Made by a program: the position numbers and the translations under genes. A stretch of 64,000 nt of DNA, taken from Pseudomonadota bacterium (lineage in GTDB: Bacteria > Desulfobacterota > Binatia > Binatales > Binataceae). Shown here piece by piece: positions 41,909 through 51,438 of the stretch. The stretch spans positions 1 through 64,000 of the forward strand of contig JAJPHI010000020.1 in the NCBI GenBank assembly GCA_021325355.1. Reading direction: 5' to 3'. Every line of letters begins with the position of its first letter. The stretch's first letter is position 1. The notes beneath the pieces were generated by a model. It worked only from the letters and a program-made list of their open reading frames with translations, did not search any database and was not told the origin of the DNA.

Positions 41909-43669
41909 ATGAAAAAGTTGTGTTGGGCAGTTCTCGCTTTTTCCCTCCTCGTGACGCGATCCGCACGCTCATCTGCCGATGACCATCGCAAGAGGCTTGA
42001 TGACGCGATCCGCTCGTATGAGGCTGCCGGCCACACGCGCTTTCGCGGTCTTCCCGAGGATGCGAGCCTCCGCCACCTGTCCTTCTCTCGGGCGGTCGAC
42101 GGTGATTCGTCGCGCCTGGTCAACGATCCGACTTACTGGCTCGACGAGATCCGGCGCGCCGCGGCCCGTCAGTTTACCGCCACGCCGATGAAGGGTTCGT
42201 TCGCGAAAGTGACGCAGTCTGCGGCCCATCGCGACTGGACCGCCTTCCTGGGTCAGGGGGCGACGGTAGGAGCCCTGAATTTTCCGGCGAAATTTTCGCT
42301 TACCGTCAATGGCACGCCTTCGTGTTCCGACTTTATCGTCTTTAACACTTCGCTCTCCGGTACTTCGACGCGGCCGAGCCTCGTTGCCTTCAACAATCTC
42401 TACAAGGCGCCGACCTGTGCCGGCACGGTGCCCGCGGTATTTTGGGCCTACAACACCGGCGGCAACGTGGTGAACTCGGTGATCATCAGCCCGGACGGCA
42501 CCCAGGTAGCCTTTGTCCAGACGACGCATGTCAACGCGACACTGATCGTGCTGAAGTGGCCGAGTGCGGGCGGTGGAACTATCGCCGCGCCACTCGAGGT
42601 GCCGGTCAGCCATAGTTACCCGTCCTGCACGGCGCCGTGCATGGCCGCCCTGCCCTTCGCCAACAAGGCGACCGATTTCAGTTCCGCGCCGTTTTATGAC
42701 TACAGCGGATCGGACACGCTGTTCGTGGGCGACCAGCTCGGCGTGCTGCACGAGTTCCATCCGGTCTTCAGCGGATCGCCGCAGGAAGTCGTAACGGGGG
42801 GCTTTCCGCTGACGGTCAGTCAAACCGGCAGACCCCTTTCTGATCCCGTCTATGATTCAGCGACGGGGCTGGTGTTTGTCGGTGAGGGACACAACGGCAC
42901 CTCGACCAACGATGGGACGTTGCACGCGGTTGATATCGCCGCGGCGAGCGTCTCGACCTCCGCGCCAATCTGCCGTGGTGTCGGCTTTCTCGGCGCGCCG
43001 CTCTTGGATCCGACCGCGCAGACGCTCTATCTAGCATGTGCGAACGATGTCGGCGGCGGCAACTGCCCGGCCCATAGCGCCTGTCTGCGTCAGTTCAGCG
43101 AAACCGGAATCAGCCAGTCGACCGGCACCGGAGTTCCGTTGGGCGCGGGAGCGGCAACGACCGCGATCGGTGGCGGCGCTTTCGATAATCTTTACCTGAC
43201 CTCCGCCGATCCGGCGGCGCCGAGCGGCAACTTCTACATCTGCGGCAATCCCAGCGGCCTGCCCACGATCTACCGGGTGCCGATCACTTCGAATCTCATG
43301 GGAAGTCCGCTGGCGATCAACACCGTCTCCGGTACCACGGGCGCCGGATGCTCCCCGATAACCGAGTTCTTCAACGATACGACGAATACTGACTGGCTGT
43401 TCGTCAGCACCTCGACGGGAGGCAATCAGACTGGATGCACGAGTTCCGGGTGCCTCTATGGCTTCAACGCCACGGTCCCGTTGAACGTCGGGGCGAACGC
43501 CGGCGACGGTATCGCGGTGGCTGGAGGGTCGAGCGGGATAATCGTCGACAATATCGGAGCCGCTACCAGTACCGCCGCCAACGTGTATTACTCAAGCCTG
43601 GCGAATCAGGCCTGCGCGGGACAGATGGGAGGCTGCGCCGTGCAGGCGTCGCAGAATGGACTACAGTGA
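41909..43669 (+). CDS. Secreted beta-propeller-like orphan protein
   Basis: The 586-residue protein has a signal peptide (LCWAVLAFSLLVTRSARSSA) and then long Gly/Ser/Thr-rich repeats with strand pairs such as DTLFVGDQLGVLHEF, GLVFVGEGHNG and NLYLTSADPAAPSGNFYICG. It also has many cysteines in pairs (for example CTAPC, CTSSGC), which suggests an exported disulfide-bonded propeller. I do not recognise the family. It lies just before the candidate RiPP locus, ending 21 bp before the nucleotidyltransferase gene, so a shared transcript is possible. Confidence 0.6.
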   Translation: MKKLCWAVLAFSLLVTRSARSSADDHRKRLDDAIRSYEAAGHTRFRGLPEDASLRHLSFSRAVDGDSSRLVNDPTYWLDEIRRAAARQFTATPMKGSFAKVTQSAAHRDWTAFLGQGATVGALNFPAKFSLTVNGTPSCSDFIVFNTSLSGTSTRPSLVAFNNLYKAPTCAGTVPAVFWAYNTGGNVVNSVIISPDGTQVAFVQTTHVNATLIVLKWPSAGGGTIAAPLEVPVSHSYPSCTAPCMAALPFANKATDFSSAPFYDYSGSDTLFVGDQLGVLHEFHPVFSGSPQEVVTGGFPLTVSQTGRPLSDPVYDSATGLVFVGEGHNGTSTNDGTLHAVDIAAASVSTSAPICRGVGFLGAPLLDPTAQTLYLACANDVGGGNCPAHSACLRQFSETGISQSTGTGVPLGAGAATTAIGGGAFDNLYLTSADPAAPSGNFYICGNPSGLPTIYRVPITSNLMGSPLAINTVSGTTGAGCSPITEFFNDTTNTDWLFVSTSTGGNQTGCTSSGCLYGFNATVPLNVGANAGDGIAVAGGSSGIIVDNIGAATSTAANVYYSSLANQACAGQMGGCAVQASQNGLQ

Positions 43670-43690: not shown

Positions 43691-44785
43691 TTGAATAAAA
43701 TCCAGCGACAGCGCTGGCAGACGCTTCTGGAGCTGTGCGCGCCTTCGACGCCCCGCTCGGTCGCCGTCGAGGCCGACTGGAGCGACCTTCGTGAGCTCGC
43801 GACGGCTCATGGGGTCGCGCCGCTGCTTGCCTCGCGCCTGGCGACGGCGCCGGCCGCGCTCCGGCTGGTCACGCGATTGCGCAATCAATATCTGGTCGAG
43901 GAGCTCTTCCGGCTGCTCGACGCCTGCGCAAGCGCCGCCATCAACGCCCTGGTGCTCAAAGGGCCGGTTCTCGCCAAACTTGCCTATCGCGATCTGAGCT
44001 GTCGCGCGTTCTGCGATCTTGACGTACTGATTCTCGAAGACGACCTCCCGCGCGCGGTGGCGCTGCTGGAGCGTCGCGGCTATCGCGCGAACCTGCCGCG
44101 GAAGACCGCGATGCGGCGGCGCTTTCAGGCCGTCGCGACCAATCTGCGGTCGGCCAATGGACTCGTCAACGTTGATCTGCATTGGGATCTGTCGCCCGCT
44201 TATTACCATTTTGGACCTGAGGCCGGCGGCGTCTGGCGGCGCGCGGTTGCGCTCGATCTCGAAGGGCGACCGGTGCCGACGCTCGCACAACTCGATCAGC
44301 TTCTGTTCCTGGTCGTCCATGCTTCGCGTCACGGCTGGGCGACGCTCGGACACCTCTGCGATCTCGCCTACCTTGTCCACGGTAGCGACTTCGCCTGGGA
44401 CGAGGTTTTGCGCGCCGCCGCGCAATCCCGATGTCTGACGATCCTCAATGTCGGCCTGCTGCTGGCGAATCGGCTCTTGAAACTGGCGCTGCCGGCGGCG
44501 GTAATCGGTCAGGCGCGCAGGGATCGTCGCGCCGCGCGTCTGGCCGAAGGTATCGCGGGAGGATTCGCCGGTGAGCGATCGTCGGCGGCAAGTACGCAGC
44601 TCGTTCGACGCGCGCTGGCGGCGATCGAGCGCCCGCGGGATCGGCTTCGCTACCTGGTGATACGCGGCTTTGCGCCGACGCTGGCCGACTGGTCCGAGCG
44701 CCCCTTATCACAAGCTTGGTATCCGATTTATTATGGGCTGCGCCCATGGCGGATTCTGCGCGCGGCCCTCGCCGGTCAACGCTGA
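43691..44785 (+). CDS. Nucleotidyltransferase-fold protein (NTP_transf_5), RiPP-associated
   Basis: The 364-residue protein has ALVLKGPVLAKLAYRD (about 86-101) and then CDLDVLI with the D-x-D (109/111) expected for the metal site of this nucleotidyltransferase family, followed by VDLHWDL. Relatives occur beside HPr-kinase-like and PqqD-like genes in lasso-peptide and exopolysaccharide loci. It could nucleotidylate a peptide or small molecule. The start is TTG 43691. The precursor-peptide gene begins 100 bp after its stop. Confidence 0.8.
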   Translation: MNKIQRQRWQTLLELCAPSTPRSVAVEADWSDLRELATAHGVAPLLASRLATAPAALRLVTRLRNQYLVEELFRLLDACASAAINALVLKGPVLAKLAYRDLSCRAFCDLDVLILEDDLPRAVALLERRGYRANLPRKTAMRRRFQAVATNLRSANGLVNVDLHWDLSPAYYHFGPEAGGVWRRAVALDLEGRPVPTLAQLDQLLFLVVHASRHGWATLGHLCDLAYLVHGSDFAWDEVLRAAAQSRCLTILNVGLLLANRLLKLALPAAVIGQARRDRRAARLAEGIAGGFAGERSSAASTQLVRRALAAIERPRDRLRYLVIRGFAPTLADWSERPLSQAWYPIYYGLRPWRILRAALAGQR

Positions 44786-44826
44786 ATGCCGGTCCGCATA
44801 AAATACGCCAAAAGCAAGGGGCTCCG

Positions 44827-44836
44827 TGTTATGATC
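44827..44836 (+). promoter_or_regulatory. Extended -10 promoter before the precursor peptide
   Basis: TGTTATGAT (44827-44835) is an extended -10 element, 50 bases before the peptide start. No good -35 is seen, which extended -10 promoters do not need. Confidence 0.4.
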
Positions 44837-44885
44837 TGACCTTGCCTTGAGACTCTCGCAGAGCTGTGACGATCAGAGAAAATCG

Positions 44886-45050
44886 ATGCCAAAAGACGAC
44901 AAGCGCGCTGAGCCGCGGTCTCCTGCCCGAGCCAAACGACCGTACGTAAAGCCGGCCTTTCGCGCCGAGCATGTGTTCGAAACGACCGCCCTGGCCTGTG
45001 GCAAGAGCAGCACCGAAGGCCAGTGCCATATCGTCATCAAACGTTCGTGA
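44886..45050 (+). CDS. Candidate RiPP precursor peptide
   Basis: This short gene encodes 54 residues. The first 17 are charged and Pro-rich (MPKDDKRAEPRSPARAK). Then follows RPYVKPAFRAEHVFETTAL and a C-terminal part ACGKSSTEGQCHIVIKRS with Cys38 and Cys47 and a final serine. A Y-x-KP segment before the core is common in precursors read by PqqD-like proteins. Its stop overlaps the next start as GTGA, and the next genes encode a peptidase, a kinase-like protein, PqqD and a radical SAM enzyme. It could be matured at the Cys residues and modified at the last Ser. The start has only a weak ribosome site. Confidence 0.75.
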   Translation: MPKDDKRAEPRSPARAKRPYVKPAFRAEHVFETTALACGKSSTEGQCHIVIKRS

Positions 45051-45547
45051 CCACCAATCCGGCCGAGGTGACGATCGGGACGGTGATACCGCTGTACGTG
45101 CAGGCGCTGCGCGCGCGCCGGCCGATCCGCTTAAAGGTCACCGGCCTCAGCATGCTGCCGGCCATATGGCCCGGCGATACTCTGACGGTGGCGCCAATCG
45201 ATAGCGCCGCCCTGCTCGCAGGAGCAATTGTCCTGAAGATCATCGACGGACGCCCGTTCGTTCATCGCCTGGTTCGGATCCGAAGCACAAACGGCAGACC
45301 GGCATACGAAACTCGCGGCGATACGCTTGAATGCGCGGACCCGGAGGGCGAAATCGTCGGGATCGTGACCGCTCGCAACGGTCGGCCGCTCCTTCCGGCG
45401 GACGGCTTCCGCCACCGGCTGACGCGCGCGATCATGCCGTCGGCGATTGGCGGGACTCTCGCGCGGGTTTTTCTTGAGGTTCGTCGACTCTACCGCGCCG
45501 TTCGCCGTTCCGCACGGTGGCAGCCGGGAGTGATGCCGACGCAATGA
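45047..45547 (+). CDS. S26/S24-like serine peptidase (signal-peptidase-like), RiPP-associated
   Basis: The 166-residue protein has VTGLSMLPAIWPGD with Ser35 as the likely nucleophile, then GAIVLKIIDGRPFVHRLV with His73, and a late TRGD-type turn. A Ser with His rather than Lys suits the ER/SipW type of signal peptidase (S26B). There is no N-terminal membrane anchor; a basic, helical tail of about 35 residues follows. It may cut the leader of the peptide encoded just upstream. GTG 45047 shares GTGA with the precursor stop and the stop shares ATGA with the next gene. GTG 45068 is another start. Confidence 0.75.
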   Translation: MTTNPAEVTIGTVIPLYVQALRARRPIRLKVTGLSMLPAIWPGDTLTVAPIDSAALLAGAIVLKIIDGRPFVHRLVRIRSTNGRPAYETRGDTLECADPEGEIVGIVTARNGRPLLPADGFRHRLTRAIMPSAIGGTLARVFLEVRRLYRAVRRSARWQPGVMPTQ

Positions 45548-46353
45548 GCTCCTCCGCCCATACGTCGGAGCGGATCGTGATCGAGATCGGCGGTCTGCCG
45601 CTGAGTTTCCGCGCGCGCGACGATCAATTCCTGGCGATGCTCGAGCGGCGCTACGCCAACTTCCTCAGCAACAGGTCAGACTCCCTCGTCGAGGTGATAG
45701 TCACGGTTGCAGCATCGCGGTCGGCGCCCAACGATGATCCGCTCGAGGTCCGTCGTCGCGGCGAAGAATGGACGATTCGGCGGGGCGACTTCTGCGCCTC
45801 CTGGAATGCCTCGACGGGCCGGGCCCATTTGCGTCAGTCGCTCAATCCGTGGTCATGCGACACCGTGCTCCGGGTTATTCACAGCCTGCTGCTGAGCGAC
45901 CGCCGCGGCTTTCTGCTGCATGCCGCCAGCGCTGTCGTTGACGATCGCGCATATATCTTTTCCGGCGTCTCGGGCGCCGGCAAATCCACGATCCTGAGCC
46001 TCGCGCCCGCTGACGTTATAAGACTGACAGACGAAATTTCCTACATTCGGAAGATTGACGACAGGTACTGCGGTTTCGGCACGCCGTTCACCGGCGAGCT
46101 CAACACGCCGGGGGTGAACGCGGCGGCCCCGATAAAGGGTTTATATTTTCTGGTGCAAGGGCCGGTGAACCGGATTGTGCCTTTATCGCCCGCATCGGCG
46201 GCTCGGCGATTAATGCGCAATCTGCTGTTCTTCGCCGGCGAGACGGCGCAGGGCGCGCAGGTGCTGGAGTCGGTCGGAGACTTTGTTTCATCGGTTCCCG
46301 CCTGCGAATTGACCTTTCGACCCGAACCCGAAGTATGGGATCTGTTCGCATGA
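45544..46353 (+). CDS. HPr kinase-like P-loop protein, RiPP-associated
   Basis: The 269-residue protein has HAASAVVDDRAYIFSG then a Walker A GVSGAGKST (141-149), with the HPr-kinase/PEPCK-like order: a conserved His (126) before the P-loop and LTDEIS after it. In lasso-peptide clusters such proteins phosphorylate the last serine of the precursor; here the candidate precursor ends in Ser. It is ATGA-coupled to the peptidase gene before it and to pqqD-like after it. True HPr kinase is unlikely because the N-terminal half is different and no HPr gene is nearby. Confidence 0.8.
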   Translation: MSSSAHTSERIVIEIGGLPLSFRARDDQFLAMLERRYANFLSNRSDSLVEVIVTVAASRSAPNDDPLEVRRRGEEWTIRRGDFCASWNASTGRAHLRQSLNPWSCDTVLRVIHSLLLSDRRGFLLHAASAVVDDRAYIFSGVSGAGKSTILSLAPADVIRLTDEISYIRKIDDRYCGFGTPFTGELNTPGVNAAAPIKGLYFLVQGPVNRIVPLSPASAARRLMRNLLFFAGETAQGAQVLESVGDFVSSVPACELTFRPEPEVWDLFA

Positions 46354-46649
46354 AAGACACTTACATCCGACGCAGCGCCGACACCGCCGCGCGCCGCATC
46401 GGCGACGAAACGATGGTCCTGGCGGTGGCCGATTCCACGCTCTTCAGCCTTAATGAGACCGCGAGCGTGCTGTGGGAGGCGGCGGACGGGACGACGCCGC
46501 TGCGCACTATCGTCGAGAATCAAATCGTCGCCGGTTTCGCGGTCGATAGCGAAACGGCCTATCGCGACGCGCTCGAACTGGTCGCGGAACTGGGCCGACG
46601 CGGCATCCTTGAAGTCGCCGACCAGCCGCTCGAGGAGCGGCCGAAGTGA
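46350..46649 (+). CDS. PqqD-like peptide chaperone
   Basis: The 99-residue protein has the PqqD pattern: DETMVLAVADSTLFSLNETASVLWEAADGTT, then a helical end VAELGRRGILEV. PqqD domains (RiPP recognition elements) bind leader peptides and present them to the modifying enzyme, here probably the radical SAM protein encoded next. ATG 46350 overlaps the kinase stop (ATGA) and the stop overlaps the radical SAM start (GTGA). Confidence 0.88.
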   Translation: MKDTYIRRSADTAARRIGDETMVLAVADSTLFSLNETASVLWEAADGTTPLRTIVENQIVAGFAVDSETAYRDALELVAELGRRGILEVADQPLEERPK

Positions 46650-47704
46650 TCTCGCTCGCGGAAGAGCTGAACGCCAAGGCTGCCGATGCAGGTATTCCGC
46701 TGGCGGTGCATCTGGATCTGACCTGGCGATGCAATGAGCGCTGCGTTCATTGCTACCTCGACCACGACGATCAGGGCGAGATGACGCTCGCGGAGATTCG
46801 GCGGTTGCTCGAGGAGCTGGCCGCCGCCGGCGTCTTTCACCTGACGCTGAGCGGCGGCGAGCCGCTGCTGCGCAAGGATTTCTTCGCGATCGTCGGGCGC
46901 GCGCGCGAGCTTGGGTTCAACGTCAAGCTCAAAACCAACGGCATCCTGATTCGCTCGCCCGAGGCGGCCCGGCTGCGCGCGCTCGCCCTCGACTCGATCC
47001 AGATCAGCATCTATTCCCATCGGCCGGAAATTCACGACGCGATTACCCGGGTCAATGGATCACTCGCGCGATCGCTCGCCGCCGCCCGCTTCCTGATCGC
47101 GCAAGGCCTGCGAGTCAAACTGGCGCACGTCCTGATGCGGCAGAATCGCGGCGACTATCCGGAAGTACAGGCGTTAGCCCGAGATATCGGCGCCGGCTTC
47201 GTGCTCGATCCAACGATTACGCCGCATCTGAACGGTGATCGTTCGCTGCTTGCGCTCGGCGTCGCCGGCGAGGACCTGCGCCGGGTGCTGAAGGATCCCG
47301 AGCTTATCGGCAATGCCGGCGAGTTCTGCAGTCCGCCGGCGCCGCCCGACGACGCCGTACTTGACGCGCGGCCATGCAGCGCAGGCCATAGCGCCTGCTA
47401 TATCTCGCCCTATGGCGACCTCTATCCATGCGTGCAATTCCCGCTGGCCTGCGGCAACGTCAGGAAGCAGCCGTTCCAGGAGATCTGGCGCGACTCAGCG
47501 CCGCTGCAGGAGGTGAGAGCGGTGCGGATTCGCGATCTGCCGGTATGCTCGACGTGTGTCCACGCCGGTTCATGCACGCGTTGCCCGGGTCTCGCTTTTA
47601 TGGAAGGTAACTTTCGTGGACCGTCGGCAGCCGACTGCGAGAAGTCATATCTGCGTACGGGTATCTTGAGTGCCGCGATGCGCCGCGCGGCGGACCATCG
47701 CTAA
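46646..47704 (+). CDS. Radical SAM/SPASM peptide maturase
   Basis: The 352-residue enzyme has the radical SAM cluster motif C29-x3-C33-x2-C36 (CNERCVHC), the SAM-binding GGEP (70-73) and a Cys-rich C-terminal SPASM region (CSAGHSACYISPYGDLYPC, then CGN, CSTC, CTRCPG) for extra [4Fe-4S] clusters. It resembles the PqqE-like group that forms C-C, C-S or C-O bonds in peptides. It is the last gene of the coupled set and starts with GTG 46646 inside the pqqD-like stop. Its most likely substrate is the 54-residue peptide at the head of the set. Confidence 0.9.
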   Translation: MISLAEELNAKAADAGIPLAVHLDLTWRCNERCVHCYLDHDDQGEMTLAEIRRLLEELAAAGVFHLTLSGGEPLLRKDFFAIVGRARELGFNVKLKTNGILIRSPEAARLRALALDSIQISIYSHRPEIHDAITRVNGSLARSLAAARFLIAQGLRVKLAHVLMRQNRGDYPEVQALARDIGAGFVLDPTITPHLNGDRSLLALGVAGEDLRRVLKDPELIGNAGEFCSPPAPPDDAVLDARPCSAGHSACYISPYGDLYPCVQFPLACGNVRKQPFQEIWRDSAPLQEVRAVRIRDLPVCSTCVHAGSCTRCPGLAFMEGNFRGPSAADCEKSYLRTGILSAAMRRAADHR

Positions 47705-50503: not shown

Positions 50504-50652
50504 GACGGCAAAGATTAGCACAGGCGCGCCGGAGCGGACTTCAGCGTATCCGCAAGCCGACGTGAGGCGTACGACGGTTTACCGGATAAGAGGGTTTTCC
50601 TTGGCCGGATAAGCCGATAAAACTGTTGGGCAATATCCGTTTGAGCGATCCT

Positions 50653-51438
50653 ATGGCAAGCAGTCTGCGAGAAGTTGTCCCTCCGCCGTCAGCGCTGGCC
50701 GAGCCGGCTTCGCGACCGTCGCTCGAGGGCCGCGGGCTGACCAAGCGCTACGGCGGCCGCGCGGTCGTGGACAACGTCGAGGCGCATGTCGGTCCCGGCG
50801 AGATCGTCGGGCTGCTCGGACCAAACGGCGCCGGCAAGACGACCACTTTCTACATGCTGGTCGGTCTGCTGCGTCCGGACGAGGGCCGGATATTTTTGGG
50901 CGGCGACGAGATCACCGGCCTGCCGCTTTATCAACGGGCGCGGCGCGGGATCAGCTACCTGCCGCAGGAGCCGTCGGTCTTCCGCAAGCTGACCGTCGAG
51001 CAGAATCTGCTGGCGGTGCTCGAGACGCTGCCCCTGACCGAGGAGGAACGCCAGAGTCGCCTGCAATCGCTGCTCGACGAACTGGGGATCGCGCGCCTGG
51101 CCAAGGCGCCCGCGGGCGTGCTTTCGGGGGGCGAGCGGCGCAAGGTCGAAATTACGCGCGCGTTGGTGCTCGATCCGCTGTTTCTTTGCCTCGACGAACC
51201 CTTTGCGGGAATCGATCCGATCACCGTCGTCGAGATTCAGCGCATCATCTCGTATCTGAAGCAGCGCGGTATCGGCATCCTGATGTCCGATCACAACGTG
51301 CAGGAGACGCTTTCGATCATCGACCGCGCCTACGTAATCCACTCCGGCAAGATCCTGGTCCAGGGCGGTCCCCGCGATATTGTCGATAACGATCGCGTGC
51401 GCGAGGTCTTCCTGGGCGAGCGTTTCCAGCTTCGTTAG
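50653..51438 (+). CDS. lptB: LPS export ABC transporter ATP-binding protein LptB
   Basis: LptB powers removal of LPS from the inner membrane with LptFG. The protein (about 261 residues) has Walker [10 protein letters not shown], the ABC signature [10 protein letters not shown], Walker [14 protein letters not shown] and the H-loop SDHNV. The pattern ([25 protein letters not shown]) matches LptB. The lptA/lptC genes that usually precede it and rpoN that often follows are absent; clpP is next. ATG 50653 is used; a TTG at 50626 is less likely. Confidence 0.9.

Follow-up and report, generated by a model that had tools for sequence, protein, structure and literature searches.

What does a 54-residue peptide gene do at the head of a cassette that also encodes a signal-peptidase-like enzyme, a kinase-like protein, a PqqD-like protein and a radical SAM/SPASM enzyme? 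The question is raised by a 64,000-nucleotide stretch of DNA (hereafter, the window) from a bacterium of the Binataceae with a genome of 3.36 Mb (assembly GCA_021325355.1, contig JAJPHI010000020.1, positions 1 to 64,000). An earlier reading of the letters alone, referred to here as the original prediction, had proposed a locus for a ribosomally synthesized and post-translationally modified peptide (RiPP) at 43691–47704, with five genes joined by overlapping stop and start codons. The coordinates of the open reading frames (ORFs) and the junction letters bear out the overlaps: all five core ORFs are on the + strand, and consecutive genes overlap at all four junctions (GTGA, ATGA, ATGA, GTGA). 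The end of the proposed span also holds, but position 43691 is the start of a nucleotidyltransferase-like gene and not of the peptide gene, which starts at 44886, and the unit includes an upstream β-propeller gene (41909–43669) that had been overlooked. We consider it probable that the locus makes a RiPP, with a RiPP recognition element (RRE), the radical SAM enzyme, the kinase and the peptidase acting on the peptide, and the product acting with the propeller. We read the cassette as a hybrid between a radical SAM system and the recently described linear polyphosphorylated peptides (LPP).

Genome contigs were scanned with a four-row alignment of the radical SAM protein, and the best 80 of 170 relatives were kept (loci L020–L099); loci L015–L019 were gathered through the peptide. 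Together with the window these made 86 loci, in which the cassette genes were detected by iterative six-frame searches. Removal of the duplicates L016–L018 (equal to L026, L020 and L023) left 83 distinct loci, to which the following counts refer. The hosts were mainly soil Terriglobia and other Acidobacteriota, and also included Binatota, one Burkholderiales metagenome-assembled genome and Nevskia soli. The peptide was present in 72 loci, the S26 peptidase in 73, the HprK-like kinase in 75, the PqqD-like protein in 80 and the radical SAM enzyme in 81, although the presence of the latter in L020–L099 is by construction, because those loci were gathered with it. PqqD and radical SAM genes occurred together in 79 loci. 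The original prediction had suggested looking for the same five-gene order in other genomes, and the order peptide–S26–HprK–PqqD–radical SAM was indeed found on one strand in 58 loci. Upstream, the propeller was present in 52 loci and a relative of the NTP_transf_5 gene, on either strand, in 37. Contig ends explain part of the missing genes.

Two samples were searched at the genome level, 96 relatives (the window's genome included) and 297 Acidobacteriota genomes. The spread among the relatives is patchy, with the peptide in six and the kinase in five, and strong peptide matches (E 7e-20 or better) were found in six of the Acidobacteriota genomes. Weak peptide matches in the Acidobacteriota genomes G488, G553, G574 and G729 (E 4e-8 to 8e-5), none of which has the propeller, and in two genomes of the window's own phylum (G116 and G153; 5e-6) were not counted as members of the family. 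One locus without a peptide (L096) comes from a genome, G479, that nevertheless has two peptide copies elsewhere. Two peptide copies in Nevskia (L118 and L125, G479:C268) lie ~3 kb apart, and by eye the adjoining ORFs resemble sedolisin proteases of family S53; for one of these ORFs (L125, 278–1450), Pfam yielded no match at 1e-5.

The peptide gene (44886–45050, + strand) encodes a presumed leader up to Thr33 and a 21-residue core that includes Cys38, Lys40, Cys47 and the C-terminal Ser54. No NCBIfam or PHROGs family covers it, and Pfam yielded two families, each in one of 31 members at chance level. The peptide is not a chance ORF: it lacks a usable database family, yet relatives were found in 75 of the 86 loci before duplicate removal (72 of the distinct loci), and a conserved peptide gene occupies this position in relatives. 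The 72 distinct peptides, with duplicate contigs and identical cores dropped, follow a common pattern that consists of YxxP, then F-[EV]-[TV], x-A-[LV]-x-C-x-K, a second Cys and a C-terminal Ser. The span from the Tyr to the presumed cleavage site is 14 residues in 71 peptides, and the remaining one is truncated. Before the presumed cut, position −3 is Phe in all 72, position −2 is Glu in 52 and Val in 20, and position −1 is Thr in 63 and Val in nine. Core residues Ala2, Cys5 and Lys7 are each conserved in 72/72, core position 3 is occupied by Leu in 71 peptides and by Val in one, and every peptide has two Cys, which are 10 apart in 57. Seventy-one peptides end in Ser, the sole exception (L065) reading on past the usual end, and the penultimate residue takes at least eight kinds. 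This Ser is not forced by the gene overlap, since 49 of the 71 terminal codons have no ATGA or GTGA overlap (it occurs in 22) and all four TCN codons are used; selection at the protein level is the best explanation of its conservation.

The gene that overlaps the end of the peptide gene (45047–45547, + strand) encodes an S26B/SipW-like serine peptidase, the presumed leader peptidase. The best solved relative of its profile was SEC11C (E 2.1e-9), with LexA-type proteins next, and Ser35, His73 and Asp92 were each conserved in 17/17 rows. The following gene (45544–46353, + strand) encodes an HprK-like putative peptide kinase, for which the AlphaFold2 model had a predicted local distance difference test (pLDDT) score of 89.9 and matched the phosphoenolpyruvate carboxykinase (PEPCK) fold with Z 15.5, a root-mean-square deviation (rmsd) of 4.6 and 237 aligned residues. 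HprK/P structures were among the Foldseek matches. An identity as PEPCK was rejected, the likeness being in fold only. The kinase carries the motif H-GxxGxGK[ST]-DE (H126, G141, G144, G146, K147 and D163-E164), with His126, Lys147, Asp163 and Glu164 each in 17/17 rows; the motif of BsfK is H148-G163-G166-G168-K169-S170-D186-D187, or H-GxxGxGKS-DD (PMC10368454). Six loci have a peptide without a nearby kinase, and five of these six genomes have a kinase of the family elsewhere. The PqqD-like protein (46350–46649, + strand; PF05402, E 1.4e-12) is a predicted discrete RRE. Among solved structures, its profile matched the lasso RREs TbiB1 (3e-8), 9x90 (6.5e-6) and TfuB1 (1.1e-5) best, and PqqD less well, at 0.017. 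Loci L024, L061 and L082 have an extra PqqD-like ORF 5' of the peptide, and some cassettes may thus have two RREs. The NTP_transf_5 nucleotidyltransferase-like gene (43691–44785, + strand; PF14907, E 1.5e-47) has a TTG start, its boundary being approximate, and ends 100 bases before the peptide gene.

The SynChlorMet cassette likewise combines an HprK-like protein (ScmC) with radical SAM enzymes (ScmE/F), and by NCBIfam family names it resembles the present locus in having an HprK-related protein and SPASM enzymes together. Membership was rejected, the kinase scoring 21 of the 125 bits required for ScmC and the radical SAM enzyme 93 of 400 for ScmE; scores for HPr-rel-A and GeoRSP were also far below cut-off.

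Among described systems, the LPP family of Bacillota (LppA/K/B/S/N/D; Popov et al. 2026, PMC13381572) comes closest. There, LppB binds the YxxP leader, LppK phosphorylates core Ser3, and the SipW-like LppS needed LppB for its in vitro cleavage after F-E-T, so that peptidase, RRE and kinase have all been tested in these roles (PMC13381572). The original prediction was supported in interpreting the locus as a peptide-maturation system, neither of the two refuting conditions that it named having overturned it, and the roles that it foresaw, signal-peptidase-like cleavage and phosphorylation, have been shown for similar genes in LPP; it knew of no described product with this architecture and missed this family, as it missed the propeller. 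Both systems have a discrete lasso-like RRE, an HprK-like kinase, an NTP transferase (the present proteins being LppK/PadeK-like and LppN/PsmN-like), and a YxxP leader that ends in F-E-T. Both also have a peptidase of the SipW/archaeal signal-peptidase type with Ser, His and Asp; the present one is the presumed LppS-like leader peptidase, in which S35/H73/D92 would be equivalent to S29/H68/D93 of LppS. In contrast to LPP, the peptides here do not match the leader motif YxxPxVLxHQxIxFETxxS, the Tyr-to-Thr span is 14 and not 16 residues, and core residue 3 is Leu instead of the phosphorylated Ser. Because the leader motif and core Ser3 phosphorylation, two defining features of LPP, are lacking, we did not file the cassette as LPP. 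Relative to LPP as presented in PMC13381572, a radical SAM/SPASM enzyme, a presumed β-propeller partner and an invariant C-terminal Ser are added, and two Cys and a Lys are invariant in the core, the Cys lying outside the motif given there. Some loci have a likely ABC-2 exporter, that of LPP being MsbA-like, and the hosts are Acidobacteriota and Binatota instead of Bacillota. The strings “Radical SAM” and “Acidobacteri” each occur 0 times in the main text of that paper. By analogy, the cassette would work like LPP with a radical SAM step added.

The 586-residue β-propeller protein (41909–43669, + strand) gave nothing above cut-offs in Pfam. Its AlphaFold2 model (pLDDT 75.5) matched the designed eight-bladed propeller Cake8 best, with Z 31.8, rmsd 2.2 and 318 aligned residues, followed by BamB with Z ~26. 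Foldseek and VIA-align gave the fold only, and a specific function was therefore not assigned. The protein is probably secreted, judging by eye from its signal-peptide-like N-terminus. In 38 of the 72 peptide-bearing loci, the propeller lies directly 5' of the peptide, no more than 300 bases away, and in nine loci it lies directly 3' of the radical SAM gene; the window has the NTP_transf_5 gene between propeller and peptide. Among the 96 relatives, the propeller was found in seven genomes, namely all six with the peptide and G001, and among the 297 Acidobacteriota genomes in six, exactly those with strong peptide matches. The chance of such co-occurrence is 8e-9 and 1e-12, respectively, if genomes are independent, and relatedness makes both values too small. 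Four genomes (G004, G018, G475 and G747) have no propeller copy beside the peptide, and such unlinked copies argue for a functional tie. The propeller thus tracks the peptide, and on this co-occurrence it may be a partner of the peptide product. Some long propellers, including those of L036, L053 and L085, have an extra insert of ~150 residues with repeated W/G-rich units, by eye; these pair with the F-V-T subtype of the peptide, also by eye, and the insert is perhaps carbohydrate-binding.

A permease of the ABC-2 type and its ATPase lie directly 5' of the peptide in 12 of the 83 loci, where the permease is likely the exporter of the product. On the 3' side of the window's cassette, beyond a Na+/H+ exchanger, only an ABC ATPase ORF (50626–51438) was seen.

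The co-occurrence also bears on a different reading, in which the processed, cross-linked peptide would bind to the propeller as a prosthetic group or small subunit, rather than be released as a natural product, like the QhpD-matured γ subunit of quinohemoprotein amine dehydrogenase (QHNDH). That system unites a radical SAM protein and a protease with a β-propeller and a small subunit that carries thioether bridges (QhpD, QhpC, QhpB; PMC8172795), and a docking partner would fit the finding that peptide and propeller nearly always share a genome, linked or not, as well as the presence of several propellers in some genomes. However, the core is much smaller here, only ~21 residues, and the presence of an RRE and a kinase speaks for a pathway of the lasso or LPP type. 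Beyond the cassette and the propeller, no cluster of neighbours occurred in more than 15 of the 86 loci, most of these clusters being unassigned, and a QHNDH-type heme subunit or monooxygenase was not seen among the neighbours, although no search was aimed at them. We regard the docking subunit as unlikely, but as the strongest of the alternatives.

The radical SAM/SPASM gene (46646–47704, + strand; PF04055 and PF13186) encodes a putative peptide maturase with ten Cys that are invariant in 18/18 rows: C29, C33, C36, C244, C262, C301, C304, C310, C313 and C331. They include the SPASM auxiliary-cluster ligands, C-x12-G-x4-C, C-x2-C-x5-C-x2-C and a further Cys. The best solved relative was the sactipeptide maturase SkfB (4e-22); of the 81 NCBIfam matches, none of the 25 best reached the cut-off of its family. 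Like the sactipeptide and ranthipeptide maturases SkfB, AlbA and PapB, this is a SPASM enzyme paired with a short Cys-bearing precursor; unlike them, it comes with a separate RRE (the radical SAM match starts at about residue 17), a kinase and an S26B peptidase, and scores below the NCBIfam cut-offs. A role in the pyrroloquinoline quinone pathway was rejected, since the genome also encodes a true PqqE of its own (L148), which scores 507 bits where 381 are required. When 27 rows were placed in a tree, the cassette enzymes formed one group (91/92) apart from the PqqE, AhbD-like and sulfatase-maturase rows, with several non-cassette rows on long branches. Their closest neighbour, weakly supported (80/73), was the pair L101/L102 from two distant genomes of the same phylum. 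In both, the radical SAM gene lies near a HIT-domain gene (L102, 981–2639, PF01230; L101, 1002–2639, by eye). L102 also encodes a 50-residue peptide with Y-x-x-P and ALSCG beside the radical SAM gene, possibly another undescribed radical SAM RiPP.

Could the cluster simply be of the LPP type, with the radical SAM gene a bystander or acting on another substrate? The resemblance of the RRE, kinase, peptidase and F-E-T cleavage motif to LPP would allow this. The pairing of PqqD and radical SAM genes in 79 loci speaks against it, although a collection based on the radical SAM protein would miss loci without it, as do the grouping of the cassette enzymes apart from PqqE and AhbD-like rows and the two invariant core Cys outside the LPP motif of PMC13381572. 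We consider a bystander improbable.

Less probable still is a lasso peptide precursor with a cyclase elsewhere. As the original prediction had recognized, the kinase and nucleotidyltransferase have counterparts in lasso-peptide loci: in paeninodin-type systems, PadeK, ThcoK and PsmK act on the terminal Ser, and PsmN is linked to added hexoses (PMC9266682). The RRE, nearest to lasso B1 proteins, the HprK-like kinase, the nucleotidyltransferase and the C-terminal Ser are all in line with these systems. On the other side stands the radical SAM enzyme. In line with the original prediction, the transglutaminase-type B2 peptidase (PF13471) was not found in the window's genome, and no cyclase was seen among the scanned window neighbours, no genome-wide cyclase search having been made. 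Moreover, core positions 7–9 have no conserved Asp or Glu, and residue 1 is variable.

Several observations weigh against our reading of the cassette as a radical SAM/LPP-like hybrid acting with the propeller. No peptide match was found in 11 and no propeller in 31 of the 83 distinct loci, some of which lie where contigs end. In G002 the propeller is present only as eroded pieces, so intact co-occurrence among the relatives is five of six, and G001 has a distant propeller and no peptide. The G002 genome is also the sixth of those without a nearby kinase, and has no kinase at all though its peptide ends in Ser; this locus resembles a relic. In place of the Asp-Asp of tested lasso kinases, the cassette kinase has Asp-Glu. 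No exporter, MsbA-like included, was found among the window's cassette genes, MsbA-like genes elsewhere not having been searched. The core is near-invariant only at Ala2, Leu3, Cys5, Gly6, Lys7, the second Cys and the terminal Ser, so that a cross-link acceptor is not indicated. Finally, the best partial NCBIfam scores of the radical SAM enzyme, again within the top 25 of the 81 matches, were for non-peptide or mixed families (tetrapyrrole enzymes and mycofactocin): AhbD (142/500 bits), mycofactocin (137/265) and NirJ2 (133/500). An enzyme making a tetrapyrrole or other small molecule, with the peptide unrelated, is nevertheless very improbable, given that these scores are far below cut-off, that SkfB is the best solved relative, and that the gene is linked with an RRE and a peptide.

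Two loci touched on above deserve description in their own right. In the relic locus (L015, G002:C9, 4079–4809), the peptide ORF looks intact and adjoins eroded fragments of a propeller, and the kinase was not found genome-wide. The distant propeller of G001 (L115, G001:C41) stands alone, with no peptide cassette, in the only genome of the same genus that was searched.

For the radical SAM/LPP-like hybrid, we propose the following pathway. By homology to tested enzymes, the PqqD-like RRE would grip the leader at Y20-x-x-P23. The SPASM enzyme would then modify the short core, most likely forming thioether cross-links from Cys38 and/or Cys47, as its family and the conserved Cys suggest. The HprK-like kinase is predicted, again from its relatives, to phosphorylate the C-terminal Ser54, where the NTP_transf_5 protein may add a further group. 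The S26B peptidase, its substrate presented by the RRE, would cut after F31-E32-T33 and free a core of ~21 residues. The product would be exported, in some loci via the ABC-2 exporter, and may act together with the β-propeller protein. A more specific version, which we put forward only tentatively, is that the peptide gives rise to a cofactor or ligand: a ~21-residue product, cross-linked by the radical SAM enzyme and phosphorylated at its C-terminus, which leaves the cell and is incorporated into a secreted eight-bladed propeller whose function depends on it.

The cassette joins two RiPP logics, radical SAM/SPASM modification on the one hand and, on the other, phosphorylation of the HprK type together with leader cleavage of the SipW type. 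Among the open-licence papers searched, we found no report that combines radical SAM, HprK and RiPP or describes such an architecture. LPP-like machinery, called Bacillota-restricted in PMC13381572, is extended to Acidobacteriota and Binatota. The same paper calls the role of LPP and paeninodin unknown, and the propeller offers a concrete handle on what phosphorylated peptides do. If the cofactor or ligand reading is true, peptide and propeller would constitute a new kind of peptide–protein pair in soil bacteria.

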